Below, piece after piece: positions 39,153 through 62,254 of a DNA stretch of 64,000 nt. Within the stretch, counting starts at the first letter, position 1; each line of letters begins with the position of its first letter. The stretch spans positions 1,922,001 to 1,986,000 of the forward strand of contig NZ_CP033116.1 in assembly GCF_009497895.1 (NCBI RefSeq). Reading direction: 5' to 3'. Both the position numbers and the translations under genes were made by a program. The notes under the pieces were generated by a model. It was not told the origin of the DNA and did not search any database. It saw only the letters and a program-made list of their open reading frames with translations. The DNA is from Halopseudomonas pelagia (GTDB lineage Bacteria; Pseudomonadota; Gammaproteobacteria; Pseudomonadales; Pseudomonadaceae).

Positions 39153-39172
39153 CCCTCCAGGTTATGCAAAAG

Positions 39173-39880: not shown

Positions 39881-39892
39881 GAGATGGTACCT

Positions 39893-42722: not shown

Positions 42723-42933
42723 AAACCTTTTTCAGGTGTTCCCACTCTGTCTCATTCCGCCCTGGACCCGCTGGGGCGAGCCTTGCGGCTCTCAGCCTTT
42801 TCTCGTTATGCCTCTTTGTAGCTATCCATTGGAGAAACCGAGAGCATTGGTATCCCTTAACGGGAAGATCAAAGCTTAGTTTATATACTGGAAATGTAGG
42901 GCCCGCCATTGCCTGAAGAGATTTGTCTGGGGC

Positions 42934-42958
42934 AAAAAAAAGCCCGCTAAGCGGGCTT
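42934..42958 (-). terminator. rho-independent terminator of the DUF1329 operon
   Basis: AAGCCCGC (42940-42947), TAA, GCGGGCTT (42951-42958), with a run of A's at 42934-42941 that becomes a U-run on the minus-strand transcript. It lies 30 bases past the DUF1329 stop. Confidence 0.9.
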
Positions 42959-42987: not shown

Positions 42988-44316
42988 TCAGTTGCCGGTA
43001 GCACGCATATGCTGAACGCTGAACATTTCCGGTGTGCTAAGGCTAGGATCAACCTGACCCTTGAACTGACCGGTGGTGCAATGCATCGCCTGAACGTCGA
43101 TCATGCTGAAGCTGTCATCAATTGACACGCCTGTGCCCTTGTTGGCAGGCAGGTGGTGGTCCGGATGCGCCTGGCCGATGGTAAAGGTCTTCCACAGCTT
43201 TCCGCTGCGATCATAAGAGACGGTGCGTGGAATGGTGAAGGTTTGCGCATCGATGAAATGCACGCGCTTGGACAGAGGATGGCTGTCATCAACCGGAGAA
43301 GCCTCCACTTCATAGACCTTGCGTAACTGCCAGGTTATGTTCGGGAAACAGCCGCCTTGGCCTCCAAAAGCCACCACCTGATAGCCATCGCTGTCGCTAT
43401 GGGTTTCTGCGTCCAGTGTTAGGTCATTGTGGTTGTAGAAGGGCATCAGCATGTGCCGCGTTCCCTTATAGTTCCAGTTCATGTCGGAGATACGGCCATT
43501 GTATCCCTCAAAATCTTCGATCATCAGGTCGGAACCCAAGAAAGCGTCAGTGACCTGTCCAGTGGCCAGGCGACGCACACGCCGCTGAAATCCCAGATAC
43601 AGCCAGGAATTGTCTCGCTTGAGGTCATCCTGCGCACGGTGAATCAACAGCTGAGTATTGCGCACGTCGTATGGCTCGAGTACCTGCACGTAGATACCAC
43701 GAAACAGTTCTGAGGGGTTTGGGGTTATTGTCGGAACAGGCTCATGGTTGACGCGACCAGTAAAGTTCAGGAAATGAAAGTTGAACTTGATAGTACGTTC
43801 CAGCTTGCCGGAGTTCATGTCTCGATATTTCCAATAAAATGGTGCAATCGCGGCGCTGTCTCCCCAGTTGTAGCCGTATTTGTAGTTCCATGCGAGCTTT
43901 TCACCTGCTCTGGGATCATTAGTATCGGGCTCTTCAAGAAATGGCCGTCCAGCGACCCAACCGTTTATTTCACCGACGCTATCCCCCAGTGAGACCTGTC
44001 CGAGACCATTGCGGCTAGCCTCGATATAGCCTGGGTGCAGATCGAAGGAAGTGGTCTCGCCTACAGTAACCTCCAACCAGCCCTGCTCGATAAAATTGGC
44101 GAAGGCAGGATCAATGATGTCCTTGAACTGCGCAAGGTTGTCCTGGTTGATGACCATTCCCGCCTGCAATCCATCATGGGATGGGACGTCGTCCTGGTAG
44201 GGATGAAAGCTACTATTGATCAGGGCATCGTTCGCCAGCACGCTAGTGCTGAACAGGCTGGCGAGCATGCTGCCAGCGAGGGCGGAACGGGTGAAATGCT
44301 TGAGTGTTATGTTCAT
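42988..44316 (-). CDS. DUF1329-family periplasmic protein
   Basis: A 442-residue exported protein with a signal peptide (residues about 1-28, ending S-V-L-A-N). The rest fits DUF1329, a periplasmic protein that commonly travels with DUF1302 and an RND transporter in Pseudomonas; the fold is thought to resemble lipid-carrying LolA-type proteins. I infer a carrier for a hydrophobic compound between the RND pump and the outer membrane. GAGGA precedes the ATG. Last gene of a four-gene minus-strand operon. Confidence 0.88.
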   Translation of the reverse strand: MNITLKHFTRSALAGSMLASLFSTSVLANDALINSSFHPYQDDVPSHDGLQAGMVINQDNLAQFKDIIDPAFANFIEQGWLEVTVGETTSFDLHPGYIEASRNGLGQVSLGDSVGEINGWVAGRPFLEEPDTNDPRAGEKLAWNYKYGYNWGDSAAIAPFYWKYRDMNSGKLERTIKFNFHFLNFTGRVNHEPVPTITPNPSELFRGIYVQVLEPYDVRNTQLLIHRAQDDLKRDNSWLYLGFQRRVRRLATGQVTDAFLGSDLMIEDFEGYNGRISDMNWNYKGTRHMLMPFYNHNDLTLDAETHSDSDGYQVVAFGGQGGCFPNITWQLRKVYEVEASPVDDSHPLSKRVHFIDAQTFTIPRTVSYDRSGKLWKTFTIGQAHPDHHLPANKGTGVSIDDSFSMIDVQAMHCTTGQFKGQVDPSLSTPEMFSVQHMRATGN

Positions 44317-44331: not shown

Positions 44332-46212
44332 TCAGAAGCTGTAACGTACGGTCAACTGGAGTTCGTCTTCTTTTTGGGCCATGCCGATAGGGCCTGCGCG
44401 GAAACGTCCCAAAGGCTCATAGCCACCCAGTCCAAGAGTTTGTCCTTCGGCATGGCCAGGTGCGCCGGCGGTAAAGGGGTCCCAAGGGTTACAGCTACGG
44501 CAATCATCGAACTCGCGGGCGCCACGGCCAACTTTGATATTTGCGCCACCGACAATTTTCAGGTTGTCGCTGACCAACCATTCAATGCTGGGAGCGATGG
44601 CGCTGGCTTCTGCCTTGAAGTCGTGCGCTGCCAGAATTTGTGGGCTCAAACGATCGTTCATCCACCAGCCCTTGATCAGCAGCGTGCCGATGAAGTTCTC
44701 TTCCCAGTCAGGCATGCCGGCCTTGCCCAGCGGACGATCTTCGAGCTGGTGCTCGTGGATCTTCTGCCCGAACAATTGGCCGGAGAACAGGAACGCTCGT
44801 TTGCTGTTGAGGAAGGGCAGGAAGATGTTCTTGTCGGCACCGACGACGAAGCGGGTTACGTCCGACTCCGAATACAGGCGGGACTGCAAGGTGTTGGCGA
44901 ACTCTTCCCCGTCGGTGTGGGCCACTTCCATGCGGAATACGGTGTCGATGCCCTGGGCGTAGTAATCCAGTGATCCACCGATCAGGTTGACTCGAGGAAA
45001 GTGGATATCGAAAGCGATCAGGCTCGGCCATACCGCGGTTTCACCAGTGAAGCCATTCTGACCTGGAATGCCACCACGCAATGAAGGCAATTGCGAGCGG
45101 TAGGTGAGGGCGTTCAGGGAGAAGCCAATATCGCCATACACACCCTCCAGCTTCAGGCCGAACTGGCCATTGGACAGACTCCAGGCCGGCATATGCGCCT
45201 TGCGGATGCCGATCTGACCGGGACCGAAGTCAGTCGCGAACACTCCGCCTGCGAAGTTGGCGACGGTACCGCCGTTCTCCCACAGGTTGTTCATGCCGCG
45301 GAAGAAGCAAGCTGCATCAAGGATGTTGTTCGGCGAACCGCACTGGCCGATGTCATGGGGGCGGAAGCGGTCGAAGTTCCAGACGAAGGACAGGTTCAAG
45401 TCGTCGAAAATCTCGCCAGGTCCCATCCGATAGTCGGTCTTCAGAATCCACATGGGGATGCGAATGTCCTGCAGCTCGTCATAGATGTTGTTGCGTGAGA
45501 AATCTACCGGGTTGATCACGTCAAGCACGCGGAATAGATCGGTGCGGCCCCAGACCACTTGCTGTTTACCCAAGCGGGTGCTGAGGATATGGCCGTTGTC
45601 CAGCCCGTAATCGAAGTCCACGTACAGCTCGCGGATGAAGTCCAGCCGGTCGTTGAACTCGCCGTAGCGCAGATCGTTAGTGTCCTTGTCGAGGTAACCG
45701 TTGATACAGCCACGGCTGTCCACGTCACAAGGGCGAACTGGTACGCCGAAAGCAACGCCGCCATCGGTATCATGCAGTTGTTCGCCCAGCACTATCATGC
45801 CTTCGTTGGGGTTGTTGGCCTCGTCAAAGGAGTTGGGCAAGGCCAGGCCGCTGCCATGGGGGACGCTATTACCCCCGCCGATATTTTCGATCATTACCGG
45901 CCCGCCGGCATTGCGTCCGTATTCATTCTTGTTCAGGTCGTATACGCCGTCATAAGAGCCGCGCAGGACGGCGTTCCAGGAGACGTTGCTGAACAGTCCA
46001 AACTCGCCGATTTTGCGCTCCGCATTCAATTGCATGGTGTTGCGGAATTTGGACAACCCCACGCTATCGCGAACGAAGGTGGCATTTTCGTAGTAGCCGG
46101 AATATCTGATCTCCTCATCAGCAACCGCGCTGGCGAGGGGAGTCAGAGCCAGACCGGCGCTTCCAAGCAGAGTCAGGCTCCAGTGCTTCAGGCCTTTTAT
46201 TGTTGTTTGCAT
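44332..46212 (-). CDS. DUF1302-family outer-membrane protein
   Basis: A 626-residue exported protein. The signal peptide ends at about residue 31 (L-A-S-A-V-A-D), and the rest is rich in alternating aromatic/hydrophilic beta strands, ending in R-Y-S-F, the terminal phenylalanine expected of outer-membrane barrels. DUF1302 proteins are predicted barrels found next to DUF1329 genes. A channel for hydrophobic molecules is a reasonable guess. AGAGGA lies before the ATG; the DUF1329 gene follows after 15 bases. Confidence 0.88.
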   Translation of the reverse strand: MQTTIKGLKHWSLTLLGSAGLALTPLASAVADEEIRYSGYYENATFVRDSVGLSKFRNTMQLNAERKIGEFGLFSNVSWNAVLRGSYDGVYDLNKNEYGRNAGGPVMIENIGGGNSVPHGSGLALPNSFDEANNPNEGMIVLGEQLHDTDGGVAFGVPVRPCDVDSRGCINGYLDKDTNDLRYGEFNDRLDFIRELYVDFDYGLDNGHILSTRLGKQQVVWGRTDLFRVLDVINPVDFSRNNIYDELQDIRIPMWILKTDYRMGPGEIFDDLNLSFVWNFDRFRPHDIGQCGSPNNILDAACFFRGMNNLWENGGTVANFAGGVFATDFGPGQIGIRKAHMPAWSLSNGQFGLKLEGVYGDIGFSLNALTYRSQLPSLRGGIPGQNGFTGETAVWPSLIAFDIHFPRVNLIGGSLDYYAQGIDTVFRMEVAHTDGEEFANTLQSRLYSESDVTRFVVGADKNIFLPFLNSKRAFLFSGQLFGQKIHEHQLEDRPLGKAGMPDWEENFIGTLLIKGWWMNDRLSPQILAAHDFKAEASAIAPSIEWLVSDNLKIVGGANIKVGRGAREFDDCRSCNPWDPFTAGAPGHAEGQTLGLGGYEPLGRFRAGPIGMAQKEDELQLTVRYSF

Positions 46213-46259: not shown

Positions 46260-48713
46260 TCAGGAGGCACCCTGTATCAGCCCGTCTTCCACCCCATGCT
46301 GGGTAGATGACGGGAATGCTTGGTCGGATGAAAGATCGGCATGCAGCACGCCGTCGTCATCCACGTAAACATCGGTAATGAAGCGCGGACGCATGACCAG
46401 CACCCAAGCCGGTACCAGCAGCATGGCGGCAATGCCGTTGATGACGATCATCACGCACAGCAGCATCGCGGCATCGGCCTGAAAGCGCAGATCGGAGAGA
46501 ATGACCCACATGATGATTCCGGCCATCAGCGTGATCGCGGTGAAGCTGATCGCCATACCCGTGGTAGCGATGGAGCGCCGCACCGCATCGCGCAGATCGC
46601 CGGTTTTGGCCATTTCTTCGCGGATGCGATCCATCATGTAGATTGAGTAGTCGATGCCTACCCCGATACCCACTGCGATCACCGGCACCGTATTGATATC
46701 AATGCCCAGTCCGCTGATGCCCATATAGGCGTAGGTCAGAGCTGTGGCGAAAAGCATCGCCAGCAGCATCATCAGGCCGGCGTGCCAGGAGGTGTAGAAC
46801 AGCATCACGAAACCAAAGATCAGCAGGAACACCAAGGGCAGCACGATCAGGTTGGTCTCGAACGCGGACTCGTTCATGGCCGCCGCGACACCCATGGTGC
46901 CACCAGCCAGGCGAATGCTCAGCCCCTCGACCTTGCCTTCATTAGCGTCAATCCATTGTTGGGCCATATGGATTGCTCGGCGGATGGTCTCGCCCTGGCG
47001 GTCCTTGTAATAGAAAACCAGGTTGGCGATGCGGTCGTCGGTGTCATTGAACTCGTTCAGAGCACCGGGGATGGGGCTGGAGGCCATGTAGGTAAACATC
47101 AATCCACCGACATAGTCCGCATCGTGTGGGATCTGGAACCAGCGCGGATCATCGTTATGCATCAGCCGGTTGACCTGCTTGACCAGGTCGGGCAACCCCT
47201 TGCTGCCGCCTACGCTCGGGTCGCCAAGCATATGCGCCTGCAAATCACCTAGCGCACGCAGAACCTCTGGCTGCTTCAAGCCGCCGACCTGCTCGTGCTC
47301 AGCGATGATGTACAGCTCCTCCGAACCGGGGAAGCGATCATTCACTTCCTTCGAGGAGACATTGTAATCATGTTCTGGGTAGAGGATTGGGGAGCCTGGC
47401 TCCGAATCACCTATGCGCACGTTGGCGGCGGAGAACAGCCCAGCCACGATCGCCAGCGCGGCGATACCGAGCATCACCGGGGCTGCGCCTGGGCGTGCGA
47501 CCATGCGCGAACAGGCGCCGCCGATGTAACGTAAAGCGGTTTCACGAAGCTCTGGATTTTTCGGTGTTGGCAGGATCGAGAGCAGCAAAGGCACCCCGAT
47601 CAGTACCGTCAGGATCACAGTCGAGGCCCAGAGCGAGGCATAGATTCCCAGTTTGGTGTTCAGCGCGATGGAGCCGATGGCAATAAGCGATAGCCCGACC
47701 GCATCCGATACCACGCCCAGCGAGCCCGGCCGGAACAGACTTTCAAAGGTGGCACGAGCGGCCTGCTGACCGTTGCCCGACACGCGAACTTCAGCGTAAT
47801 ACCGTTCAACTAACTGCACCCCGTGACTCATGGCGCGAGCGGCAATCAGAAAGGGAATAACCAGGCCCAGCGGGTCGAGATTAAATCCCAACAGACTGAT
47901 AATTCCGAGCCCCCAGATGGTCGACACCATCACCCCGCCGAGCGGGATCAATACGCCATAGGCCTTGCGGAAATGGAAGATCAGCAGGGCGAGCATGATC
48001 AGCACGGTGAAGATGAAGATCTGCAGGATCTGGTCCATATAGGTATAGGCCCAGCCGACCAGCACCGGTTGACCGGTGGCGTAGATGGTCATCCCGTCGC
48101 GGGCTTCGTTATCGCGCAGCAATTGCAGTTGGGCAAAGGTGTTTTCGTAGTCCAGCTGGCCCTCGATCAACTGCGCCTTGACCAATGCCATCTTGAAATC
48201 TGGCGAGACTAGCGGCCCGTAGATCCGGGGATTGGCGGCTACATCAGCGCGCATGGCGGCCAGTTGCTCTTCGCTATAGTCGTTCTGCTGCGCATCAAAG
48301 TAGGGTTCGGAGTTGATCGATCCCACTTCGGTCAGCCAGATTTTGCGAGAGTTGCGATGGGTTACGCTGGTGACCAGGTTGTGGTTTACGCCGGGCAAGT
48401 TATCGACCGCGTGGGTGATACGGTCGATGGTCGCCAGATTCTCATTGCTGAAGATGTCCCCGTCTTCGAAGGCAACGCCAACCACGAGCACATTGGCGCC
48501 GCCGAAGCTGTCCTTGATGCTGTTATGCAACTCTATGTAGGGATGCTGCTGGGGCAGCAGATCGGCAAAATCGGTGTATATCTTCAGCCCAGGTATGCGC
48601 AGAGCGAACAACAGGGTGAGTAGTGCGATGGCGGCCAGTACCTTGCGTGGGTTGTTGAATATCCACACTTCGAGGCTGTGCATGGCATGGGTAAATCGAT
48701 GCATTCCAGGCAT
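46260..48713 (-). CDS. RND-superfamily (MMPL/HAE3-like) transporter
   Basis: An 817-residue inner-membrane transporter with about 12 membrane segments and two large periplasmic loops. The key 'GIGVGIDYSIYMMDRIREE' segment lies in the second half and an equivalent 'AARAMSHGVQLVERY' in the first. The size and the lack of membrane-fusion and TolC partners fit the MMPL/HAE3 branch, which moves lipids and hopanoids. With DUF1302 and DUF1329 it probably forms an envelope-spanning route for a hydrophobic substrate. GAGGAAA precedes the ATG. Confidence 0.9.
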   Translation of the reverse strand: MPGMHRFTHAMHSLEVWIFNNPRKVLAAIALLTLLFALRIPGLKIYTDFADLLPQQHPYIELHNSIKDSFGGANVLVVGVAFEDGDIFSNENLATIDRITHAVDNLPGVNHNLVTSVTHRNSRKIWLTEVGSINSEPYFDAQQNDYSEEQLAAMRADVAANPRIYGPLVSPDFKMALVKAQLIEGQLDYENTFAQLQLLRDNEARDGMTIYATGQPVLVGWAYTYMDQILQIFIFTVLIMLALLIFHFRKAYGVLIPLGGVMVSTIWGLGIISLLGFNLDPLGLVIPFLIAARAMSHGVQLVERYYAEVRVSGNGQQAARATFESLFRPGSLGVVSDAVGLSLIAIGSIALNTKLGIYASLWASTVILTVLIGVPLLLSILPTPKNPELRETALRYIGGACSRMVARPGAAPVMLGIAALAIVAGLFSAANVRIGDSEPGSPILYPEHDYNVSSKEVNDRFPGSEELYIIAEHEQVGGLKQPEVLRALGDLQAHMLGDPSVGGSKGLPDLVKQVNRLMHNDDPRWFQIPHDADYVGGLMFTYMASSPIPGALNEFNDTDDRIANLVFYYKDRQGETIRRAIHMAQQWIDANEGKVEGLSIRLAGGTMGVAAAMNESAFETNLIVLPLVFLLIFGFVMLFYTSWHAGLMMLLAMLFATALTYAYMGISGLGIDINTVPVIAVGIGVGIDYSIYMMDRIREEMAKTGDLRDAVRRSIATTGMAISFTAITLMAGIIMWVILSDLRFQADAAMLLCVMIVINGIAAMLLVPAWVLVMRPRFITDVYVDDDGVLHADLSSDQAFPSSTQHGVEDGLIQGAS

Positions 48714-48723: not shown

Positions 48724-49725
48724 TCAGTTAGTACTGGCCGCTAAGGCCTTTGGGAGTGGAATATTCAGCAGGAGCCCTCGGCCACCAGCCGCCAGAAGGT
48801 GCTGATTGGGAAGCAAACGCCCTGCGCGCAGATAGAGGGGTTGATCAGGCGTAGTCAGGGGCGTCCAGCGTTGGCCGCGCAGTTGCAGCACGGTGGCGTT
48901 TTCACCTACCGCGTAGAGTCCTTGCGGGCCATCAATAAAGCCAAAGATGGGTGCTTCGGTGCCGGTACGCTGACGTTGCCAGGTCACTCCGGCATCGCTG
49001 GTGTGCCAGATAAACCCATTCAGTCCGCCTACCCACCCTTGCTCTAGAGAGGTGTAGTGACTGGCGTGCGGATAGAACTCATCCGGCAGGCTGCCGGATG
49101 GCTCCCAATTGCGGCCACCGTCTACAGTGACGAACCGCAAGCCGTACTCCCCGGTGACGATAGCTTGCTCGTCATTGACGAACTGCAGGGTGGTAAATAT
49201 GGCATCCTCGTCGAGGCTCATCTCACCCCACGTCTGACCTTGATCAGCACTGCTTTGCAAGGTGCTGAATGCGCCTGCCGCCCACCAGCTGCCATCAGGC
49301 GCGCAAGTCGCCGCCATCATCTGTTCACTGCTGGGCAGTGCGTGAGCAGTCCAGTTCTGTGCCTGGGGATCGGCATGCCAGAGTTGGTTATCGAAGCTCA
49401 GGGCAATAAAACTGCCATCGGGGCAGACATCCAGATCGATCAGACTCATATCGGTAGGTAGCTGTTGGCGCTGCCATTGCTGCCCGTTATCCAGGCTGCT
49501 TACGGCCACACCTTGATTACCAACCAACAGGGTGACCTGTGCATTGCTGGCCATTGCCTGATAGAAATCGGTACGCTGATTTGGCTGTTTTGCCTGTTGG
49601 GTAACGGCATCCAGGTCAAGAGCGGCTTCGCAACCGCCCAATACCATCCCAAGGCTGACAAGGGCGATAGAAGGGAAAAGACGTATTAACGGAGGGCGCT
49701 CAAAGCGCCGTAGGGCAATTAACAT
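48724..49725 (-). CDS. YCF48/BNR-repeat lipoprotein
   Basis: A 333-residue protein with a lipoprotein signal (lipobox L-G-G-C about 30 residues in) and a beta-propeller of repeated 'S.D.G.tW' blades ('SSADQGQTWGEMS', 'TVDGGRNWEPSG', 'TSDAGVTWQRQ'), the YCF48/Hcf136 type. Such genes precede RND/DUF1302/DUF1329 genes in Pseudomonas. Role: assembly or sensing at the envelope, unknown. The start at 49725 is used because the longer frame begins at 49788, inside the predicted sigma-54 promoter and upstream of the transcription start. First gene of the operon. Confidence 0.85.
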   Translation of the reverse strand: MLIALRRFERPPLIRLFPSIALVSLGMVLGGCEAALDLDAVTQQAKQPNQRTDFYQAMASNAQVTLLVGNQGVAVSSLDNGQQWQRQQLPTDMSLIDLDVCPDGSFIALSFDNQLWHADPQAQNWTAHALPSSEQMMAATCAPDGSWWAAGAFSTLQSSADQGQTWGEMSLDEDAIFTTLQFVNDEQAIVTGEYGLRFVTVDGGRNWEPSGSLPDEFYPHASHYTSLEQGWVGGLNGFIWHTSDAGVTWQRQRTGTEAPIFGFIDGPQGLYAVGENATVLQLRGQRWTPLTTPDQPLYLRAGRLLPNQHLLAAGGRGLLLNIPLPKALAASTN

Positions 49726-49777: not shown

Positions 49778-49792
49778 GCAACGCCCATGCCA
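49778..49792 (-). promoter_or_regulatory. sigma-54 (-24/-12) promoter of the YCF48-RND operon
   Basis: On the minus strand the sequence reads TGGCAT-GGGCG-TTGC, one mismatch from TGGCAC-N5-TTGC, with GG and GC exactly 12 bases apart. Transcription would start near 49767, about 42 bases before the YCF48 ATG. Activator-type palindromes lie upstream at 49902-49950. Confidence 0.7.
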
Positions 49793-49901
49793 GCATGCTG
49801 GGCGCGCCCTATCTCTCATTTCAAGTTATTGTAAAATATGAGTTTTATTGTTTGTTTCGTGCTGAGGAATGGGCTCGGGAGAGCCTAAGCTTCCAAGGAA
49901 C

Positions 49902-49950
49902 TTGATCAATTGATCAACTCTGCTGAAGCTGTTTCTCTTTTGATCAAAAG
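49902..49950 (-). promoter_or_regulatory. tandem activator sites (TTGATCAA palindromes) of the YCF48-RND operon
   Basis: TTGATCAATTGATCAA (49902-49917) and CTTTTGATCAAAAG (49937-49950) are perfect palindromes with centres 34 bases apart. They lie about 140-175 bases upstream of the predicted start site, the normal range and pairing for XylR/DmpR upstream activating sequences. The same palindrome precedes the phenol operon at 51901. Confidence 0.7.
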
Positions 49951-50012
49951 CGCAAAATGCAACCGGTCGTCGAGACGGAGGGCAGGTCTAGGGGGGAGAG
50001 GAGCGGGCAGCG

Positions 50013-51722
50013 TCAGAAGGTATGTGAAACGTCGCTTTTTTTCAGTCGGTAAGCTAGTGCGGGGCGGCTCAGGCCAAGCAGCCGGGCAGCTTTTGATACG
50101 TTCTGTTCGGCCATCTGCATGGCTTTGAGCATCAGTTGCTGCTCTAGTACTTCAAGGCTGATGCCTTCCGCGATGATACGGCTGGCCCAATCGCCGTCCG
50201 CCACCGCCGTTGACTGCACGTCGACAAGCTGCCCCGTGGCGTTAAGACGTTCCTCGTGTTTGCTGTCCGGATCGTCGGGGAATACCGCAAATAACGAGTC
50301 CTGGCTGATTGTTTCGTTGCTGTCGGTCAGGATCACTCCGCGCTCGATCACATTCTCGAGTTCACGAATATTGCCCGGCCAACGATAACGGAGGCATAGC
50401 TCCAGTGCTTTGTCTGAAAGGCCCAACGTGCGTTTGTTGTATTCGTTATGGAATTTTTTCAGAAAGTGTTCTGCCAATAGCGGGAGGTCTTCCAAGCGCT
50501 CGCGCAAGGGAGGAATCTTGACCGGGAACACATTCAATCGGTAGTACAGGTCTGCACGGAAGCGGCCGTTCTGCACTGCTTCGGCAAGTGATTCGTTGGT
50601 GGCGGCAATGACGCGAACGTCAATGCTGCGGGTGCGGTTATCGCCGACCCGTTCGAGCTCGCCTTCCTGCAGAACCCGCAACAAGGTCGCTTGCGCGCGG
50701 GGGGACAGCTCAACCACCTCATCGAGGAAAATGGTACCGCCGTGCGCTCGTTCAAAACGGCCCTGGCGAGACTGGTTGGCGCCGGTGTAGGCGCCTTTTT
50801 CCACGCCAAACAGTTCTGCCTCAATCAGGTCCGGCGGGATAGCGGCGCAGTTCACTGCTACGAAGGGTTGCTCAGCGCGCTCACTGCTTAGGTGCACGCT
50901 GCGTGCGATAACTTCCTTGCCAACCCCGGTTTCTCCAAGCAACAGCACCGAAACCTTGCCTTTGGCGGCCTTGTCGATCATCTGACACACGGTCTTGTAG
51001 GCGTGGGACTGGCCTATACCATAGTACTGCCCCTGCTGCTTTTCCAGGCTGGTACGCAGTGAACTCACCTGGCTCTGCAGGTCATATAACTCCTCGATAA
51101 TCGGGTCGCTGCGAAAGTACTGCTTGAACTCCTCTGCGTCCTCCCACTCTTCTGCAGGTTTGCCGGTAATCAGGCATTTTTCATCTCCGCAGCCACGGCA
51201 ACTGGTCTCACGGAAGATGATTTCTCGACCCATAAAAGAAGAGGTATAGGCGCATGCATATCCCAGCAGCGCCCAACACGCGGGATCTTCCATCATGCCC
51301 AGTTCAGTTTGGCAGATCTCGACTTCGAAAGAGTCGATCCACTCCAGCTCACCGTAAAAGTGGCCAGACTGCTGATCCAGGTCGATCTGAATCGGCCGCA
51401 CCTTGACCATGCCCTTGAGTGAATGCAGTTGCGGGCCAGCAAGAAAGATGTCCAGCTCGCTGGAGTGAGGTCGCAGATGGCGCGCAAGTTCGGCGTCCTT
51501 TACACCGGACTGGTAGCCCATGCGCATGAAGAAGCCCTTGGCCCGTTCAATCCCCAGGCTATTGACCAACTCGCGGCGGAAATTCGCCATGGAGGATACC
51601 TGCATCAGAAGCATCCGCTGTTCGCCAAACCAGATTTTTCCTTCAGCACTTTGAAAGCGAATTTGTTCGCTCAGATCAAGGTAATCCGAGTATTGGACCT
51701 GGGGCTTGTAGCTGATCGCCAT
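50013..51722 (-). CDS. dmpR: XylR/DmpR-type sigma-54 activator of phenol degradation
   Basis: A 569-residue activator in four parts. The N-terminal XylR_N sensor and V4R domain (to about 205, with the C-x2-C and C motif 'SCRGCGDEKC') bind the aromatic effector. A linker leads to the AAA+ domain with Walker A 'GETGVGKE', the sigma-54 contact loop 'GAYTGA' and Walker B 'GGTIFLDEV'. The C-terminal Fis-type helix-turn-helix is 'NVSKAARLLGLSRPALAYRL'. It is divergent from dmpK, as in the classical dmp locus, and activates the operon on binding phenols. Palindromes on both sides suggest that it also controls the YCF48-RND operon behind it. Confidence 0.95.
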   Translation of the reverse strand: MAISYKPQVQYSDYLDLSEQIRFQSAEGKIWFGEQRMLLMQVSSMANFRRELVNSLGIERAKGFFMRMGYQSGVKDAELARHLRPHSSELDIFLAGPQLHSLKGMVKVRPIQIDLDQQSGHFYGELEWIDSFEVEICQTELGMMEDPACWALLGYACAYTSSFMGREIIFRETSCRGCGDEKCLITGKPAEEWEDAEEFKQYFRSDPIIEELYDLQSQVSSLRTSLEKQQGQYYGIGQSHAYKTVCQMIDKAAKGKVSVLLLGETGVGKEVIARSVHLSSERAEQPFVAVNCAAIPPDLIEAELFGVEKGAYTGANQSRQGRFERAHGGTIFLDEVVELSPRAQATLLRVLQEGELERVGDNRTRSIDVRVIAATNESLAEAVQNGRFRADLYYRLNVFPVKIPPLRERLEDLPLLAEHFLKKFHNEYNKRTLGLSDKALELCLRYRWPGNIRELENVIERGVILTDSNETISQDSLFAVFPDDPDSKHEERLNATGQLVDVQSTAVADGDWASRIIAEGISLEVLEQQLMLKAMQMAEQNVSKAARLLGLSRPALAYRLKKSDVSHTF

Positions 51723-51900
51723 GGCGTCTGCCTATTTTTTATTAGCGGGCTGCGTCCGGCTGGGCGTGTCTCATAGTGATCCAGGAGCCGGCGGATTTAT
51801 CTCTTTATCTTCTACTCGTATCCACCAAAAAATCAACCAGATGATGAAAAGTGGGCCGCTGCAGCCAGGGCTGAGCATTTGAGTGAACAGGGGTGGCAAC

Positions 51901-51916
51901 TTGATCAAATGATCAA
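51901..51916 (+). promoter_or_regulatory. activator site of the phenol operon
   Basis: TTGATCAAATGATCAA has the TTGATC/GATCAA half sites of the XylR/DmpR upstream activating sequence. Its centre is about 153 bases before the predicted phenol-operon start. A second copy is not clear; TTGAGTGAACA about 30 bases upstream is at best a partial match. Confidence 0.7.
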
Positions 51917-52035
51917 AAAAAGCCAACCCCCTGTTGCTTTTACTTCTAGCCAAGACGGCTCATGTATTTTGGTGAAAATGCAAATATGTAAATAAATCAA
52001 TTGGATATATCAAATTTACGCATGCTTTTTGGTTC

Positions 52036-52052
52036 TTGGCACAAGCGTTGCT
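52036..52052 (+). promoter_or_regulatory. sigma-54 (-24/-12) promoter of the phenol operon
   Basis: TTGGCACAAGCGTTGCT is a near-perfect -24/-12 element (TGGCAC-N5-TTGC) with GG and GC 12 bases apart. The start would be near 52062, 30 bases before dmpK. It lies in the 368-base gap between dmpR and dmpK, which holds no further gene. Confidence 0.9.
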
Positions 52053-52090: not shown

Positions 52091-52342
52091 ATGAGCCAGC
52101 CCGCACAAACTTTTGATCAGATGCCACGTTATGTCCGTGTGCGCAGTGAGCCTGGGGCTCGCCTGGTCGAGTTCGACTTCGCCATCGGCCATCCCGATCT
52201 GTTTGTAGAACTGGTTCTTCCCAGTGCTGCCTTCGAGCATTTTTGTCAGCACAACCGTGTTCAGCATATGAGCGAAGAGATGGCTCGGGCGGTGGATGAA
52301 GAAATGATCAAGTGGCGATTTGGTGAACATGGAAGTCGCTGA
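52091..52342 (+). CDS. dmpK: phenol hydroxylase assembly protein DmpK
   Basis: An 83-residue protein at the head of the phenol hydroxylase genes. DmpK-type proteins are not part of the active enzyme but help to activate the oxygenase, probably during iron insertion. The sequence fits the family in length and in 'RYVRVRSEPGARLVEFDFAI'. The ATG at 52091 is used; the upstream frame to 52001 would run through the sigma-54 promoter and is rejected. Confidence 0.92.
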   Translation: MSQPAQTFDQMPRYVRVRSEPGARLVEFDFAIGHPDLFVELVLPSAAFEHFCQHNRVQHMSEEMARAVDEEMIKWRFGEHGSR

Positions 52343-52389: not shown

Positions 52390-53391
52390 ATGAGCATCGA
52401 AATCAAGACTACATCGGTCGAACCGATTCGAAACACCTATAGCAATATCAAACGGCGTTTTGGTGATAAACCGGCGACCCGGTATCAGGAAGCCAGCTTC
52501 GATATCGAAGCGGTGACCAACTTCCACTACAAGCCGTTGTGGGATCCGGAGCACATGCTCAATGACCCAACCCGCACCTGCATTCGCATGGCTGATTGGC
52601 ACAGCGTGACCGATCCCCGGCAATTCTATTACGGCGCCTACGTGCAGAACCGCGCCAAGATGCAGGAAGCCACCGAACACAGTTACAGCTTTTGCGACAA
52701 GCGTGGATTGATTACGCGCTTGCCTGAAGACCTGCAAGAGACGCTGTTGCGCTTTCTCGTGCCGCTGCGGCATGTGGAGCTGGGTGCGAACATGAATAAC
52801 AGTGGTGTCGCCGGTGATTGCATCGCTGGCACCGTCACCCAAATGCATATCTACCAGGCCATGGACCGTCTGGGTGCTGGTCAGTATCTCTCGCGTATCG
52901 CGCTGATTATCGATGGCGGTACCGGCGACGCGCTCGACCGCTCCAAAACCTACTGGATGGATGATGCGCTGTGGCAACCCATGCGTCGCCTGGTTGAAGA
53001 CACGCTGGTGATCAAGGACTGGTTCGAATTAAGCCTGACGCAGAACCTGATCATCGACGGCCTGATGTACCCGCTGATGTATGAGGCGTTCGATCAGTGG
53101 CTGGATGAGCAGGGCGCAGCCGATGTGTCCATGCTCACTGAGTTCATGCGCGACTGGTCCAAGGAGACCGTTCGCTGGGTCGATGCGATGGTCAAGACCG
53201 TGATGGCCGAAAACGAAGCCAACGCCGTTCAGCTGCAGGCATGGGTCGAGCATTGGGAACCGCGCGCCTATGAGGCGCTGGCACCCCTGGCCGACGAAAG
53301 CATGGGCCGTGACGCGCTGGATACGGTTCGTGCCCAGTTTGCCACTCGTTTGAAAAAGCTTGGCCTCACTAGCCAGGGAGTACAGGCATGA
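52390..53391 (+). CDS. dmpL: phenol hydroxylase, beta subunit DmpL
   Basis: A 333-residue oxygenase subunit of the soluble diiron monooxygenase family. It pairs with DmpN and DmpO in the (alpha-beta-gamma)2 hydroxylase that turns phenol into catechol; it keeps the ferritin-like fold but has no iron site. The start is 'MSIEIKTTSVEPIRNTYSNI'. dmpM overlaps its end by 4 bases. Confidence 0.94.
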   Translation: MSIEIKTTSVEPIRNTYSNIKRRFGDKPATRYQEASFDIEAVTNFHYKPLWDPEHMLNDPTRTCIRMADWHSVTDPRQFYYGAYVQNRAKMQEATEHSYSFCDKRGLITRLPEDLQETLLRFLVPLRHVELGANMNNSGVAGDCIAGTVTQMHIYQAMDRLGAGQYLSRIALIIDGGTGDALDRSKTYWMDDALWQPMRRLVEDTLVIKDWFELSLTQNLIIDGLMYPLMYEAFDQWLDEQGAADVSMLTEFMRDWSKETVRWVDAMVKTVMAENEANAVQLQAWVEHWEPRAYEALAPLADESMGRDALDTVRAQFATRLKKLGLTSQGVQA

Positions 53392-53660
53392 GCCAGCTCG
53401 CTTTTATCGTCTTCCAGGACAACGACAACGCTCGTTACATCGTGGAAGCCATTGCGCAGGACAACCCCCACGCCGAAGTGCAGCACCAACCCGCACTGAT
53501 CCGAATCCAGGCCGAAAAGCGCCTGGTGATCAACCGAGCAACGGTTGAAGAGAAGATCGGTCGGGAATGGGACGTTCAGGAAATGCTCCTGGATGTGATC
53601 AGTATCGGCGGCAACGTGGATGAGGATGAAGATCATTTCATTCTCGAGTGGAAAAATTAG
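53388..53660 (+). CDS. dmpM: phenol hydroxylase regulatory/coupling protein DmpM
   Basis: A 90-residue cofactorless effector protein that binds the hydroxylase and tunes electron transfer and oxygen activation, as MmoB does. Typical features are 'AFIVFQDNDNARYIVEAIAQ' and 'GREWDVQEMLLDVISIGG'. The length matches the family and the start overlaps dmpL by ATGA. Confidence 0.95.
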   Translation: MSQLAFIVFQDNDNARYIVEAIAQDNPHAEVQHQPALIRIQAEKRLVINRATVEEKIGREWDVQEMLLDVISIGGNVDEDEDHFILEWKN

Positions 53661-53671
53661 GAGATCGAATC

Positions 53672-55219
53672 ATGGCGACCAATAAGAAGAAACTCAGTCT
53701 CAAAGACAAGTACCAGTACCTGACCCGCGACATGGCCTGGGAGCCCAGCTACCAGTCGAAAAAAGACATCTTCCCGCAGGAAGATTTCGAAGGCATCAAG
53801 ATTACCGACTGGGACAAGTGGGAAGATCCCTTCCGCTTGACCATGGATGCTTACTGGAAATACCAGGCCGAAAAGGAAAAGAAGCTGTATGCGATCTTCG
53901 ACGCCTTTGCACAGAACAACGGTCATCAGAATATCTCCGATGCCCGTTATGTAAATGCGCTCAAGCTGTTTTTGACCGGCGTGTCCCCGCTTGAGTATGG
54001 CGCCTTCCAGGGCTACTCACGAGTCGGCCGGCAGTTCAGCGGCGCTGGCGCGCGTACTGCCTGTCAGATGCAAGCGATTGATGAGTTGCGCCACGTGCAG
54101 ACGCAGATTCACGCGATGAGCCATTACAACAAGCACTTCAACGGTCTGCATGACTTTGCCCATATGCACGATCGCGTCTGGTTCCTTTCGGTGCCCAAAT
54201 CGTTCTTCGATGATGCGCGCAGTGCAGGTCCGTTCGAATTCCTCACGGCGATCTCGTTTTCTTTCGAATACGTCCTGACCAATCTGTTGTTCGTGCCCTT
54301 TATGTCCGGCGCTGCTTACAACGGCGATATGGCCACAGTCACTTTCGGCTTCTCAGCTCAGTCCGATGAAGCCCGGCATATGACCCTGGGCCTGGAAGTG
54401 ATCAAGTTCATGCTTGAGCAGCATGAAGATAACGTGCCGATTATCCAGCACTGGATCGACAAATGGTTCTGGCGCGGTTACCGCCTGCTCAGCCTGGTCA
54501 GCATGATGATGGACTATATGCTGCCCAACAAGGTGATGTCCTGGAAGGACGCTTGGGAGGTGTATTACGAGCAGAACGGCGGGGCCTTGTTCAAGGACCT
54601 TGAGCGTTACGGTATTCGTCCTCCCAAATATCAGGACGAGGCAAACAAGGGTAAAGAGCACATCAGCCACCAGCTGTGGGCGACCTTCTACCAGTACAGC
54701 CAGGCTACCAACTTCCATACCTGGATTCCCAGTGAAGAAGAAATGAACTGGCTCTCGGAGCAGTACCCGGACACCTTCGATCAGTACTACCGTCCGCGCT
54801 TCGAGCATTGGCAGGCGCTGCAGGAGAAAGGTGAGCGTTTCTACAACAACACTTTGCCGCAACTGTGCCAGGTGTGCCAGGTGCCGGCGCTGTTTACCGA
54901 ACCTGATGATCCGACCAAGCTGAGTCATCGCAGTCTGGAGCATGAGGGTGAGCGTTATCACTTCTGCTCGGATGGCTGCTGCGACATCTTCAAATATGAG
55001 CCTGAAAAATACATCCAGGCCTGGTTGCCGGTACACCAGATTTACCAGGGCAACTGTGAAGGTGCGGATGTGGAGACCGTAGTCACCAAGTACTACCACA
55101 TTGGCGCTGGCCAGGACAATTTCGAGTATCTGGGTTCTCCGGATCACAAGCGCTGGCAGGCGATCAAGGGGCAGAAACCTGACGAATCGCAGGCAGCCAA
55201 GCCCAAGAACGCAGCCTGA
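53672..55219 (+). CDS. dmpN: phenol hydroxylase catalytic alpha subunit DmpN
   Basis: A 515-residue subunit carrying the carboxylate-bridged diiron centre that hydroxylates phenol to catechol. The ligands E108, E138, H141 (E-L-R-H), E199, E233 and H236 (E-A-R-H) are all present. The C-terminal segment with 'CQVCQVPALF' and 'FCSDGCCDIF' is the YHS-like zinc domain typical of phenol hydroxylases. The ATG at 53672 is preceded by GGAG; a longer frame from 53648 overlaps dmpM and is rejected. Confidence 0.97.
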   Translation: MATNKKKLSLKDKYQYLTRDMAWEPSYQSKKDIFPQEDFEGIKITDWDKWEDPFRLTMDAYWKYQAEKEKKLYAIFDAFAQNNGHQNISDARYVNALKLFLTGVSPLEYGAFQGYSRVGRQFSGAGARTACQMQAIDELRHVQTQIHAMSHYNKHFNGLHDFAHMHDRVWFLSVPKSFFDDARSAGPFEFLTAISFSFEYVLTNLLFVPFMSGAAYNGDMATVTFGFSAQSDEARHMTLGLEVIKFMLEQHEDNVPIIQHWIDKWFWRGYRLLSLVSMMMDYMLPNKVMSWKDAWEVYYEQNGGALFKDLERYGIRPPKYQDEANKGKEHISHQLWATFYQYSQATNFHTWIPSEEEMNWLSEQYPDTFDQYYRPRFEHWQALQEKGERFYNNTLPQLCQVCQVPALFTEPDDPTKLSHRSLEHEGERYHFCSDGCCDIFKYEPEKYIQAWLPVHQIYQGNCEGADVETVVTKYYHIGAGQDNFEYLGSPDHKRWQAIKGQKPDESQAAKPKNAA

Positions 55220-55294
55220 TATCCACTAACTGTGTCATCAGGCCGGGGAAGCTGACCGGCCCGATGAACAAGAACAAGAAAAGAGGTAAGTGTC

Positions 55295-55654
55295 ATGAGC
55301 GTCAAAGCCATATCCGACTACATTACTCAGCCCAAGGACACTGTGGCCAATTTCAACGGCATGCAGGTGGTTTACGTGCACTGGGCAAAGCATCTGATGT
55401 ACTGCTCGCCGTTTGCGTTTCTGGTCTCGCCTGACATGACGTTGGCCGGCTTTTTTGCCGAGGTACTGCGTCCGGCGATCAAGGACCATCCTGACAGCAC
55501 GCGGGTTGATTTCATGGAAGCTCAGTGGCTGCTCAACGGCCAGGGGTTTAGCCCGACTCCAGAGGCGGCGCTGCTGGCTCAGGGCATTGATCACAAGAGC
55601 ATGCTCACGCTGAACACCCCCGGCCTGAACGGCATCAACGGCTGCGCCAGCTGA
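55295..55654 (+). CDS. dmpO: phenol hydroxylase, gamma subunit DmpO
   Basis: A 119-residue third oxygenase subunit. It fits the phenol/toluene monooxygenase gamma family, with 'VYVHWAKHLMYCSPFAFLVS' as the characteristic middle part. AAGAGG precedes the ATG. It stabilises the hydroxylase and lies between dmpN and dmpP as usual. Confidence 0.94.
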   Translation: MSVKAISDYITQPKDTVANFNGMQVVYVHWAKHLMYCSPFAFLVSPDMTLAGFFAEVLRPAIKDHPDSTRVDFMEAQWLLNGQGFSPTPEAALLAQGIDHKSMLTLNTPGLNGINGCAS

Positions 55655-55664
55655 GGTCGAGCAT

Positions 55665-56726
55665 ATGAGCTACTCACTGACAATCGAGCCTATCGGCGAG
55701 CAGATTAACGTCGAAGAAGGCCAGACCATCCTGCAGGCCGCATTGCGCCAGGGTGTGTGGCTGCCCTTTGCCTGCGGGCATGGCACTTGTGCCACCTGCA
55801 AGATTCAGGTGGTCGAAGGCGATGTAGACATTGGCGACGCCTCACCCTTTGCGCTGATGGATGGCGAGCGTGACGAAGGCAAGGTACTGGCTTGCTGCGC
55901 GACGCTACAGAGTGATGCGGTCATTGAAGCCGATATTGATGTCGACGACGACTTCGAGGGTTACCCGGTCGAGGATTACGTAGCCACTGTGACGCGCATC
56001 GTCACGCTGTCTCCGACTATCAAGGGTGTGCATCTGAAGCTTGACCGGCCCATGACTTTCCAGGCCGGCCAGTACATCAACCTGGTCTTGCCTGGTATCG
56101 AAGGTAGCCGCGCGTTCTCACTGGCCAATCCACCCAGTCGTGCTGATGAGGTCGAACTGCATATCCGATTGGTTGAAGGTGGTGCTGCGACGACACATGT
56201 CCATCAGCAACTCAAAGCCGGAGATCAACTCAGTCTGTCCGGCCCTTATGGCCAGTATTTCGTGCGCCGCTCGCAACCCGGTGATCTGATTTTTATCGCG
56301 GGCGGATCGGGTTTGTCGAGCCCGCAATCGATGATCCTTGACTTGCTGGAGCAAGGCGACACACGGCAGATGACCCTGTTCCAGGGCGCACGCAACCGCG
56401 CGGAGCTTTACAACCATGACCTGTTTCAGGGGTTGGCCGCCAAGCACAGCAATTTCACCTATGTCCCCGCGCTCAGTCAGGCGGAAAAGGATGATCAATG
56501 GACAGGCTTTTGCGGTTACGTGCACGAGGCGGCCAAGGAACATTTTGGCGGTCGCTTTGCTGGCAACAAGGCCTACCTCTGCGGGCCGCCGCCGATGATT
56601 GACTCGTCCATCAGCGCATTGATGCAAGGCCGACTATTTGAACGCGATATTTTCATGGAACGCTTCTTCACGGCCGCCGACGGCGCCGAAGAAACGACCA
56701 GGTCGGCACTCTTCAAGAAAATCTGA
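55665..56726 (+). CDS. dmpP: phenol hydroxylase reductase DmpP
   Basis: A 353-residue NADH oxidoreductase. The N-terminal plant-type 2Fe-2S domain has 'CGHGTCATC' and a later C-C pair; the FAD domain has 'RAFSLANPP'; the NAD domain has 'FIAGGSGLSSPQ' and 'CGPPPMI'. It passes electrons from NADH to the diiron centre of DmpN. Starts 10 bases after dmpO. Confidence 0.96.
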   Translation: MSYSLTIEPIGEQINVEEGQTILQAALRQGVWLPFACGHGTCATCKIQVVEGDVDIGDASPFALMDGERDEGKVLACCATLQSDAVIEADIDVDDDFEGYPVEDYVATVTRIVTLSPTIKGVHLKLDRPMTFQAGQYINLVLPGIEGSRAFSLANPPSRADEVELHIRLVEGGAATTHVHQQLKAGDQLSLSGPYGQYFVRRSQPGDLIFIAGGSGLSSPQSMILDLLEQGDTRQMTLFQGARNRAELYNHDLFQGLAAKHSNFTYVPALSQAEKDDQWTGFCGYVHEAAKEHFGGRFAGNKAYLCGPPPMIDSSISALMQGRLFERDIFMERFFTAADGAEETTRSALFKKI

Positions 56727-56842: not shown

Positions 56843-57163
56843 ATGACTGTGAACTATGAAATTACCGAGCGAGGCAGCGGCAGCCGTTTTAGCTGCGAAC
56901 CTGAGCAGAGCGTGCTCAAAGCGATGGAGCAGCGGGCCAAACGCTGCGTCCCCGTTGGTTGTCGGGGTGGTGGTTGCGGCTTGTGCAAGGTTCAGGTGAT
57001 CAGCGGCGAATATCACTGTGGGCCGATGAGTCGTAAACATGTGTCCGACGCTGCTCTTGCCTGCGGCGAAGCGCTGGCTTGCCGTCTTTACCCGCTGAGC
57101 GACTTGACGATTGAGTGCCGCACGCCCAAGGCCGCGGCCGAAATACAACAACAAATCCAATGA
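56843..57163 (+). CDS. dmpQ: chloroplast-type ferredoxin DmpQ (XylT-like)
   Basis: A 106-residue 2Fe-2S ferredoxin with '[13 protein letters not shown]' as cluster motif and a further cysteine near residue 76. Proteins of this kind re-reduce inactivated iron in catechol 2,3-dioxygenase rather than serve the hydroxylase. The dmpB gene begins 10 bases after its stop, which fits that role. Confidence 0.93.
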
Positions 57164-57173
57164 GGTGATAGTC

Positions 57174-58094
57174 ATGAGAAAAGGTGTAATGCGCCCCGGT
57201 CACGTACAGCTTCGCGTCCTGGACATCGATGCTGCAGTTAAACACTACACGGAGTTGATGGGCCTGATCGAAATGGATCGCGACCCACAGGGCCGTGTGT
57301 ACCTGAAAGCCTGGACCGAGGTCGATAAATATTCCTTGGTGTTACGCGCTGCCGAAGAGCCTGGCATGGACTTCATGGGATTCAAGTGCATTAGTGAGGA
57401 AGTACTGGATAACCTGCGCGCCGGCCTCGTTGCCTTCGGTTGCGAGGTGGAGGACATACCGGCGGGGGATCTGCAGGACTGTGGTCGCAGGGTGCGTTTC
57501 GTAGCGCCGACCGGGCATAACTTCGAGCTGTTTGCGAGTAAGAAACAGACCGGCAAATGGGGCGTCAATAACCGCAATCCGGAAGCCTGGCCCCGCGAGT
57601 TGGGTGGTATGCGAGCCACCCGCTTCGACCACTGCCTGCTGTACGGTCCGAATCTGGCGGAGACTTACGAGCTGTTCCGCGACGTGTTGGGGTTCGATCT
57701 GGCTGAACAGGTACTGACACCAGAGGGGAAGCGGGTAGCACAGTTTCTCACGGTGAGTACCAAGGCCCACGACGTGGCGTTTATCGAGCACCCCGAGCCG
57801 AAATTTCACCATGCGTCCTTCTATCTGGACAACTGGACTGACGTGCTCCGCGCGGCTGACCTGATTTCAATGACCGATACCTCGATCGATATAGGCCCGA
57901 CTCGGCATGGTCTGACTCATGGGCAGACCATCTATTTCTTCGATCCTTCGGGTAACCGCAACGAAGTGTTTGCCGGTGGCGACTACCACTATCCGGATCA
58001 CGAGCCTGTGACCTGGGATGCCGAGTCATTGGGCAAAGCTATTTTCTATCACGACCGGGTTCTGAACGAGCGGTTCCTGACCGTACTGACCTGA
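57174..58094 (+). CDS. dmpB: catechol 2,3-dioxygenase
   Basis: A 306-residue extradiol dioxygenase that cleaves catechol to 2-hydroxymuconic semialdehyde. Fe(II) ligands H153, H213 and E264 correspond to H153, H214 and E265 of XylE. H199, H245 and Y254 lie at the expected second-shell places. GAGGTG is 6 bases before the ATG. The small size relative to ditC (313) and its close similarity to XylE mark it as a monocyclic catechol enzyme. Confidence 0.97.
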
Positions 58095-58125
58095 CTATTT
58101 CGTTTGTCACCAGGATTGCGCAGCT

Positions 58126-59586
58126 ATGAAAGACATCAAACATTTTATTAACGGCGAGTACGTCGGGTCGGCCAGCGGCAAGACCTTCGATAACGTCAAT
58201 CCGGCCAATGGCCGGGTGCTGAGCCGTGTACATGAAGCAGGGCGCGAGGAAGTCAATGCGGCAGTGAATGCCGCGCGAGCTGCTTTCAATGGACCTTGGG
58301 GGCGGATGACCGTCGACCAGCGCACTGAAATACTGCACAAAGTGGCAGACGGCATCAATGCTCGGTTTGAAGAGTTTCTCGATGCTGAATGTCAGGACAC
58401 CGGCAAACCCAGATCATTGGCCAGCCATATCGACATTCCCCGTGGCGCCGCCAACTTCAAGGTGTTCGCCGATCTGATCAAGAATGTTCCTGCCGAGTCA
58501 TTCGAGATGCCCACCCCCGATGGCACTGGCGCCTTGAATTATGGAATCCGTCGACCCAAAGGTGTGATTGGCGTCATCAGCCCATGGAATTTGCCGCTGT
58601 TGCTGATGACATGGAAGGTTGGTCCCGCATTGGCCTGTGGCAACACCGTGGTGGTCAAGCCTTCGGAAGAGACACCCACTACGACGGCGCTGCTCGGTGA
58701 AGTAATGAAAGCGGCTGGCGTTCCTGATGGGGTCTATAACGTGGTGCATGGTTTCGGTGGCAATTCCGCTGGCGCTTTCCTCACCGAACATCCGGATGTG
58801 GATGCATTCACTTTTACCGGTGAAACCGGCACTGGCGAAACCATCATGAGGGCTGCAGCTAAGGGCGTGCGTCAGGTCTCTCTGGAGTTGGGCGGCAAGA
58901 ACGCCGGCATCGTGTTTGCCGATTGTGATATGGACAAAGCCATCGAAGGCACGCTGCGCTCGGTGTTCGCCAACTGCGGTCAGGTCTGTCTGGGCACCGA
59001 GCGTGTGTATGTCGAACGCTCTATTTTCGATGAGTTCGTCGCACGTCTGAAGGCCGGAGCGGAAAGTCTGGTGATCGGCCCGCCGGATGATGAAACCAGC
59101 AATTTCGGTCCGCTCATCAGTCTTAAGCACCGCGAGAAGGTCCTGTCTTACTACCAGAAAGCCATTGACGAGGGCGCCACTGTGATTACCGGTGGAGGCG
59201 TTCCCGACATGCCGGCCGAGCTGGCGCACGGTGCTTGGGTACAGCCGACCATCTGGACCGGGCTGAAGGATGATTCGCCGGTGGTGACTGAAGAGATTTT
59301 TGGCCCCTGCTGCCATATCCGCCCGTTTGACAGCGAGGCCGAAGCAGTCCAACTGGCCAACAGTCTGCCCTACGGCCTGGCTTCGGCAATCTGGACCGAG
59401 AACGTCACCCGCGCGCACCGCGTTGCGGCGCAAGTCGAAGCAGGCATTGTCTGGGTCAACAGCTGGTTTCTGCGTGATCTGCGCACCTCCTTTGGTGGTA
59501 GCAAGCAGTCCGGCATCGGCCGTGAAGGGGGTGTGCACTCGCTGGAGTTTTACACCGAACTTAAAAACATCTGCATAAAACTATGA
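58126..59586 (+). CDS. dmpC: 2-hydroxymuconic semialdehyde dehydrogenase
   Basis: A 486-residue NAD-dependent aldehyde dehydrogenase. 'GVISPWNLPLLL' and 'GNTVVVKPSEETP' bind the cofactor; the base glutamate is in 'LELGGKNAGIV' and the nucleophile cysteine in 'NCGQVCLGTERVYVE'. It oxidises the ring-cleavage aldehyde to 2-hydroxymuconate (the oxalocrotonate branch). Position after dmpB is the usual one. Confidence 0.96.
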   Translation: MKDIKHFINGEYVGSASGKTFDNVNPANGRVLSRVHEAGREEVNAAVNAARAAFNGPWGRMTVDQRTEILHKVADGINARFEEFLDAECQDTGKPRSLASHIDIPRGAANFKVFADLIKNVPAESFEMPTPDGTGALNYGIRRPKGVIGVISPWNLPLLLMTWKVGPALACGNTVVVKPSEETPTTTALLGEVMKAAGVPDGVYNVVHGFGGNSAGAFLTEHPDVDAFTFTGETGTGETIMRAAAKGVRQVSLELGGKNAGIVFADCDMDKAIEGTLRSVFANCGQVCLGTERVYVERSIFDEFVARLKAGAESLVIGPPDDETSNFGPLISLKHREKVLSYYQKAIDEGATVITGGGVPDMPAELAHGAWVQPTIWTGLKDDSPVVTEEIFGPCCHIRPFDSEAEAVQLANSLPYGLASAIWTENVTRAHRVAAQVEAGIVWVNSWFLRDLRTSFGGSKQSGIGREGGVHSLEFYTELKNICIKL

Positions 59587-59593
59587 GGCGGCC

Positions 59594-60460: not shown

Positions 60461-60462
60461 CA

Positions 60463-61248: not shown

Positions 61249-61302
61249 CCTGAATTCCAGGTCATCGGAACAGACAGCATTTCCCCTAGAGGGTAATACA
61301 TC

Positions 61303-62241: not shown

Positions 62242-62254
62242 GGAGGACAAGACC

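Follow-up and report, generated by a model that had tools for sequence, protein, structure and literature searches.

Phenol biosensors are built on DmpR, a regulator familiar from textbooks. Here, we analysed 64,000 nucleotides of Halopseudomonas pelagia (NZ_CP033116.1, positions 1,922,001 to 1,986,000; this whole stretch is called the window, and positions are counted within it), in which dmpR lies between a phenol hydroxylase operon and a second gene group, the YCF48 operon, for a YCF48-type protein, an RND transporter, a DUF1302 protein and a DUF1329 protein. The source genome comprises 4.55 Mb in a single contig, and its nearest named relatives in our scan were Halopseudomonas species. The described dmp, mop and mph operons, regulated by DmpR, MopR and MphR, resemble the phenol side of this locus in that the regulator is divergent from a KLMNOP phenol hydroxylase and an upstream activating sequence (UAS) lies upstream of a -24/-12 element. 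They differ in that the available parts of the two sources (PMC3063778, PMC7264223) do not mention a second operon for an envelope system. Suvorova and Gelfand (2019, PMC6449761) predicted that AphR, a DmpR-type activator of phenol hydroxylase, controls adjacent operons of COG4447 (YCF48-like), COG1033 (RND), PF07044 (DUF1329) and DUF1302 in Burkholderia sp. 383, and suggested that these families help in coping with toxic aromatics. However, this concerns Betaproteobacteria, with one genome for AphR and the other cases predicted under AphS or AphT. The sequence-only reading that preceded this work had held that no role of the envelope operon in phenol metabolism was established, which has to be narrowed in view of the AphR prediction; among the open-licence papers listed in the literature searches, none described the YCF48 operon of Gammaproteobacteria as expressed in a DmpR- or phenol-dependent way. 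The operon is a broadly conserved case of an already known arrangement, and this conclusion is well supported.

Related gene groups have been described for other regulators and compounds. In Zoogloea oleivorans, according to a figure legend, a sigma-54 regulator is separated from phenol hydroxylase by genes that include DUF1302 and DUF1329 (PMC7012976). The sigma-54 regulator EtpR of Aromatoleum aromaticum EbN1, which has a V4R domain (PMC10715001), is encoded with a catabolic cluster on one side and an 'efflux' cluster on the other, and expression of the two depends on it according to reverse transcription PCR and proteomics (PMC4630880). This system differs in serving an anaerobic p-ethylphenol pathway, with a 6.5-kb efflux cluster that possibly holds the same four families. 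We found the same four-gene cassette beside acyl-CoA genes on EbN1 plasmid 2 (L161:7864-14370), and the stretch before its YCF48 gene contained no UAS below 5 mismatches and no -24/-12 element below 3, which suggests that the use of the cassette extends to other pathways. AmeABCD of Castellaniella defragrans was characterized experimentally as a monoterpene-tolerance exporter and shares with our locus the link to a catabolic island, a DUF1302 outer-membrane protein, a LolA-like DUF1329 protein, a COG4447 periplasmic protein and an HAE3 RND (PMC6394551). Its differences are the monoterpene substrates and the gene order, which by accession numbers is DUF1302-DUF1329-COG4447-RND and not YCF48-RND-DUF1302-DUF1329. 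In Pseudomonas putida, PP_0765/PP_0766 and PP_2018/PP_2019 are needed for growth on Tween 20, and a DUF1302, a DUF1329, a periplasmic protein and an RND are linked by fitness data and predicted contacts (PMC10866462). In contrast to our locus, they belong to two separate loci by gene number, and the available text does not mention a DmpR link.

In the window, a UAS and a -24/-12 element were found on each side of dmpR, and DmpR very probably co-regulates the phenol operon and the YCF48 operon. Upstream of the YCF48 operon, the perfect inverted repeat TTGATCAATTGATCAA (49902 to 49917) has the form of a DmpR-type enhancer palindrome. A second, weaker UAS with 3 mismatches (49932 to 49950) stands at a distance of 30 or 38 bp from it, according to the register chosen, and holds CTTTTGATCAAAAG from 49937, within which the octamer TTGATCAA occupies 49940-49947. 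The phenol operon has the 16-mer palindrome match TTGATCAAATGATCAA at 51901 to 51916 (all three sites are given without a strand). The corresponding sigma-54 elements are TGGCATGGGCGTTGC on the YCF48 side (TGGCAT-N5-TTGC; 49778 to 49792, minus strand; expected transcription start around 49766), with one mismatch to TGGCAC-N5-TTGC and 10 bases between GG and GC, and TGGCACAAGCGTTGC on the phenol side (TGGCAC-N5-TTGC; 52037 to 52051, plus strand; expected start around 52063). From UAS centre to -24, the distance is 117 bp for the YCF48 operon and 128 bp for the dmp operon. The YCF48 operon combines an adjacent activator of the XylR_N-V4R-AAA+-Fis type with a UAS 100-200 bp upstream of the promoter and a -24/-12 element. 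The motifs that the sequence-only reading had listed at 49902, 49937, 51901 and 49778 were all located there, and its phenol-side element, placed at 52036, exists with T52036 as the preceding base. Its proposal of a transcription start consistent with the YCF48 start codon holds for the ATG at 49725, which opens a lipoprotein-like signal with LGGC and would, by arithmetic, leave a leader of about 41 bases; it fails for the longest YCF48 open reading frame (ORF), whose start at 49788 falls inside the -24/-12 element.

With up to 2 mismatches, the 16-mer TTGATCAANNGATCAA matched 8 times on both strands of the window, compared with 0.53 expected, and 0 of 100 shuffles reached 8. Exact TTGATCAANTGATCAA occurs in only two places of the genome, flanking dmpR on each side. 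Genome-wide, 29 distinct sites with up to 2 mismatches were counted, among which only the two flanking dmpR have a -24/-12 element (up to 1 mismatch) at 100-200 bp; two further UAS-like sites have one at 65 and 212 bp. Two of the motifs taken singly were not significant in the window, the octamer being found 4 times against 1.34 expected (5 of 100 shuffles reached 4) and TGGCAT-N5-TTGC with up to 1 mismatch 8 times against 8.4. The YCF48-side -24/-12 element was accepted as significant because it is kept across the upstream regions of relatives. For calibration, the pWW0 sequence showed a 3-mismatch UAS and a 2-mismatch -24/-12 element about 120 bp apart between xylR and xylS, which we take to be a XylR-controlled promoter; the xyl upper operon was not in the two pWW0 stretches fetched.

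Conservation was followed in the best 80 of 133 named loci, from Halopseudomonas, Marinobacter, Pseudomonas, Stutzerimonas, Alteromonas, Paraglaciecola, Marinobacterium, Neptuniibacter and others. L073 and L137, whose upstream regions are lost at contig ends, were left out, and merging of near-duplicates (85% identity over 250 bases) reduced 79 regions to 67, window included. A search for palindromes before the same operon in other phenol degraders had been proposed from the sequence, and it was borne out: among the 48 dereplicated regions with dmp genes in the locus, a UAS was present in 36 with up to 2 mismatches and in 46 with up to 3 (shuffles 0.10 and 0.97), a -24/-12 element with up to 1 mismatch was present in 47 (shuffles 1.23), and a reversed-pattern control gave 0 in each of the three counts. 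L125 has dmp genes and no such -24/-12 element; in L081, L102, L103, L108, L111, L112 and L116 the element is kept and the best UAS has 3 mismatches. Counted over the 80 loci without dereplication, UAS matches with up to 2 mismatches numbered 51 in the 36.7 kb before YCF48 (49/80 loci) and 39 in the 37.4 kb before dmpL, compared with 9 in the other 1,557 kb, and the dmp-side -24/-12 element (up to 1 mismatch) was found in 53/53 loci listed. Looked for at the spacing of a UAS pair about three helical turns apart, a second UAS (up to 4 mismatches) 29-31 bp upstream of the first gave 21 hits over 48 loci, not dereplicated. The helical-spacing test on UAS distances returned 0/20000, which is no proper probability since the 18 distinct distances are non-independent. 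Together, conserved sites, conserved -24/-12 elements, near-helical spacing and close linkage support the earlier suggestion that one sigma-54 activator may serve both operons.

Within the genus, close YCF48 orthologues (at least 67% identity) were found in 13 of 37 genomes, our own included; weaker YCF48-type matches occur in most, and 36/37 have some match. In 12 of the 13, dmpR stands directly upstream of YCF48 with a UAS (up to 2 mismatches) in the gap, and the thirteenth, G013, begins at a contig end. DmpN was likewise found in 13/37 genomes, 12 of them common to both sets; the exceptions are G024, which is 75% complete and has a dmp contig starting just before the promoter, and G027, where the contig is 5.3 kb long and bears DmpR, YCF48 and RND. 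Among 398 genomes of the window's family (Pseudomonadaceae by named relatives), an RND orthologue was present in 23 and DmpN in 57, with both in 22. According to the positions listed, 21/23 genomes have both genes no more than about 11 kb apart on a single contig; in G013 they are split between two contigs, and the other case is G027 with its short contig described above. The YCF48 operon is an optional but faithful companion of phenol hydroxylase. The one plasmid on which the whole module was found, a conjugative plasmid of Pseudomonas veronii T1 (NZ_CP142043.1; L160 260643-275089, L162 1-12000), carries dmp genes, dmpR, YCF48 and RND, with DUF1302 and DUF1329 across and after the start of the record and a 2-mismatch UAS plus a perfect -24/-12 element before YCF48.

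The dmpR gene (50013 to 51722, minus strand) encodes an activator with Pfam matches to XylR_N, V4R, AAA+ and a Fis-type helix-turn-helix (HTH). Its product matches CapR and MopR, two phenol-type regulators with solved structures, the match to CapR covering residues 19-478 with 842.7 bits. Histidine 100 and tryptophan 128 lie within the stretches where phenol sensors bear their hydroxyl-holding residues. In CapR/MopR-type sensors, His/Trp-type residues grip the phenol hydroxyl (PMC10715001), and in our own reading His100 and Trp128 are probably the same phenol-holding residues. To the right of dmpR on the plus strand follow dmpK (52091 to 52342, Phenol_hyd_sub; the ORF is listed from TTG 52001, with an ATG at 52091), dmpL, M, N, O and P for phenol hydroxylase (52390 to 56726, from ORFs and domain matches) and the genes for a ferredoxin, catechol 2,3-dioxygenase and the meta-cleavage pathway (56843 to 63292). 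To the left, in tandem with dmpR on the minus strand, the YCF48, RND, DUF1302 and DUF1329 genes are separated by 10, 47 and 15 bp. A terminator-like hairpin with a T run (42940 to 42958, minus strand) marks the probable operon end, the search having found 1 such hairpin in the stretch against 0.8 expected by chance, which is near chance level. After this site lies a 110-aa ORF (42577-42909) with no Pfam or NCBIfam match, whose counterpart in Halopseudomonas laoshanensis (L025) appears as two tblastn pieces.

With regards to the proteins, RND, DUF1302, DUF1329 and COG4447/YCF48 stand together in one cassette. The first gene (48724 to 49725) encodes a predicted lipoprotein (LGGC) with a YCF48/BNR-type beta-propeller according to its domain match. 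The 817-aa RND transporter (46260 to 48713) was assigned to the HAE3/MMPL type by domain and structure-sequence matches; among solved structures, MmpL3 matches it best by sequence, in an alignment that spans about 175 residues in the C-terminal half. The DUF1302 protein (44332 to 46212) is a predicted OprD/Occ-like outer-membrane beta-barrel in a modest-confidence model, and because the mean predicted local distance difference test score is 59.7, this fold match is a lead only. The DUF1329 protein (42988 to 44316) has the LolA-like fold of a periplasmic carrier. Neither a membrane fusion protein nor a TolC-type outer-membrane factor was found among the four operon proteins by Pfam matches at E 0.001, although an HAE1 tripartite pump of the MexAB-OprM type would have both in its operon. 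The genome has a second HAE3-like locus (G000:C1:3182156-3188252), in which two RND genes, 30% identical to the dmpR-linked RND, surround a YCF48-type gene.

The sites, spacing, conservation, linkage and family and fold assignments were computed here, and from them we infer DmpR occupancy, phenol induction and the operon transcript. In the proposed mechanism, dmpR stands between two operons that DmpR would both activate: phenol-bound DmpR would bind the palindromes on each side of its gene and contact sigma-54 RNA polymerase at the -24/-12 elements about 117 and 128 bp away. One operon would yield phenol hydroxylase and the meta pathway, the other a YCF48 lipoprotein, an inner-membrane HAE3-like RND, a periplasmic LolA-like DUF1329 protein and an outer-membrane OprD-like DUF1302 protein. 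Driven by the proton motive force, this system would remove phenolic or other membrane-disturbing compounds from the envelope during growth on them. Among the uptake, export and membrane protection offered by the sequence-only reading, export appears best supported by analogy with the AmeABCD precedent (PMC6394551) and, given co-regulation, is the moderately favoured direction. For the whole explanation, in which DmpR activates both operons and the envelope system works like AmeABCD, we estimate a probability of roughly 55%, with the substrate and the outward direction as its least certain parts. More tentatively, the locus may form a phenol-switched unit in Gammaproteobacteria that joins catabolism to a trans-envelope conduit without a membrane fusion protein, DmpR pairing feeding with the clearing of toxic substrate, catechol or lipid products from the envelope. 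The DmpR regulon in these genomes very likely includes a second operon, so that DUF1302/DUF1329/HAE3 systems, whose cargo is largely unknown, would gain an inducer that is defined, a switch at the genetic level and an easy readout, and phenol tolerance in bioremediation strains a practical lever.

Several observations weigh against this explanation. The substrates of AmeABCD dissolve far less well in water than phenol does, and phenol itself is therefore possibly not the cargo. The likeness to AmeABCD is one of protein families, and the best NCBIfam match of the RND, HAE3 TIGR00921, reaches 124.7 bits against a cut-off of 351.9. DmpN occurs without the RND orthologue in 35/57 genomes (one, G024, cut by a contig end), so the operon is not needed for phenol growth as such. 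In the deposited P. veronii T1 plasmid sequence, the RND match is spread over two frames and lacks about 68 residues, and YCF48 is likewise divided between two frames; this copy looks broken or misread. Among the 19 dereplicated loci whose stretch holds no dmp genes, a UAS was found in 5 (up to 2 mismatches) or 10 (up to 3) and a -24/-12 element (up to 1 mismatch) in 10; six of these loci (L077, L085, L106, L127, L133, L140) either are contig ends or lie close to DmpR or meta-pathway genes, and L109 has a perfect -24/-12 element in a wider region, outside the narrower one used for the dereplicated counts. L122, L123, L138, L143, L144, L148, L149 and L150 have neither motif, which suggests that the cassette also serves other regulons.

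The main competitor leaves DmpR in control and reverses the transport, the system importing or shuttling lipophilic cargo, either external alkylphenols or lipids for remodelling the outer membrane when phenol stresses the cell. HAE3/MMPL relatives move lipids, with MmpL3 as the nearest solved structure, the DUF1329 protein is LolA-like, the DUF1302 barrel resembles OprD/Occ uptake channels, and the requirement of the P. putida relatives on Tween 20 (PMC10866462) fits uptake as well as export, which also counts against a purely outward function. However, the one tested four-part relative acts as an exporter (PMC6394551), and the same list of matches to the barrel model includes AlgE, an export channel; we consider import rather unlikely. 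Alternatively, most expression of the YCF48 operon could come from dmpR read-through or depend on another activator, with a weak or decoy UAS. UAS-type sites are common to XylR/DmpR relatives in general, and no terminator-like site was found between the tandem dmpR and YCF48 genes, so that dmpR read-through could also supply the operon. Yet the UAS and the -24/-12 element stay with YCF48 in L099, L100 and L107, where the gap after dmpR is larger, and in L113, which has dmpR on the opposite side of the operon, and conserved spacing is not expected of a decoy, which makes this explanation quite improbable. A chance origin of the motifs, with which the single-window -24/-12 count agrees, is opposed by the 16-mer excess in the window and the two exact places in the genome and is already refuted by the conservation in relatives. 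It was rejected after comparison with shuffles, with the reversed pattern, with the remaining regions of these loci and with the complete source genome; its probability is next to nil.

Activation of both operons by DmpR thus remains our preferred explanation of the locus. Some minor observations were made on the relatives and on the surroundings of the phenol region. Two YCF48 stretches given by tblastn (L133:9034-9981 and L142:8946-9962) contain an in-frame stop and may represent YCF48 decay or a mis-set stretch. On a Marinobacter salarius plasmid (NZ_CP021334.1), an 81% DmpR relative lies beside toluene monooxygenase genes, with a 1-mismatch UAS 88 bp after the regulator stop (L164:10704-10807) and no YCF48 operon annotated there, perhaps as a remnant. 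Beside the phenol region of the window, positions 31150-40453 hold a cluster in which several acyl-CoA dehydrogenases stand with a P450, an amidohydrolase, an enoyl-CoA hydratase, a Cache-domain protein, a short-chain dehydrogenase/reductase (SDR) and GTP cyclohydrolase I.
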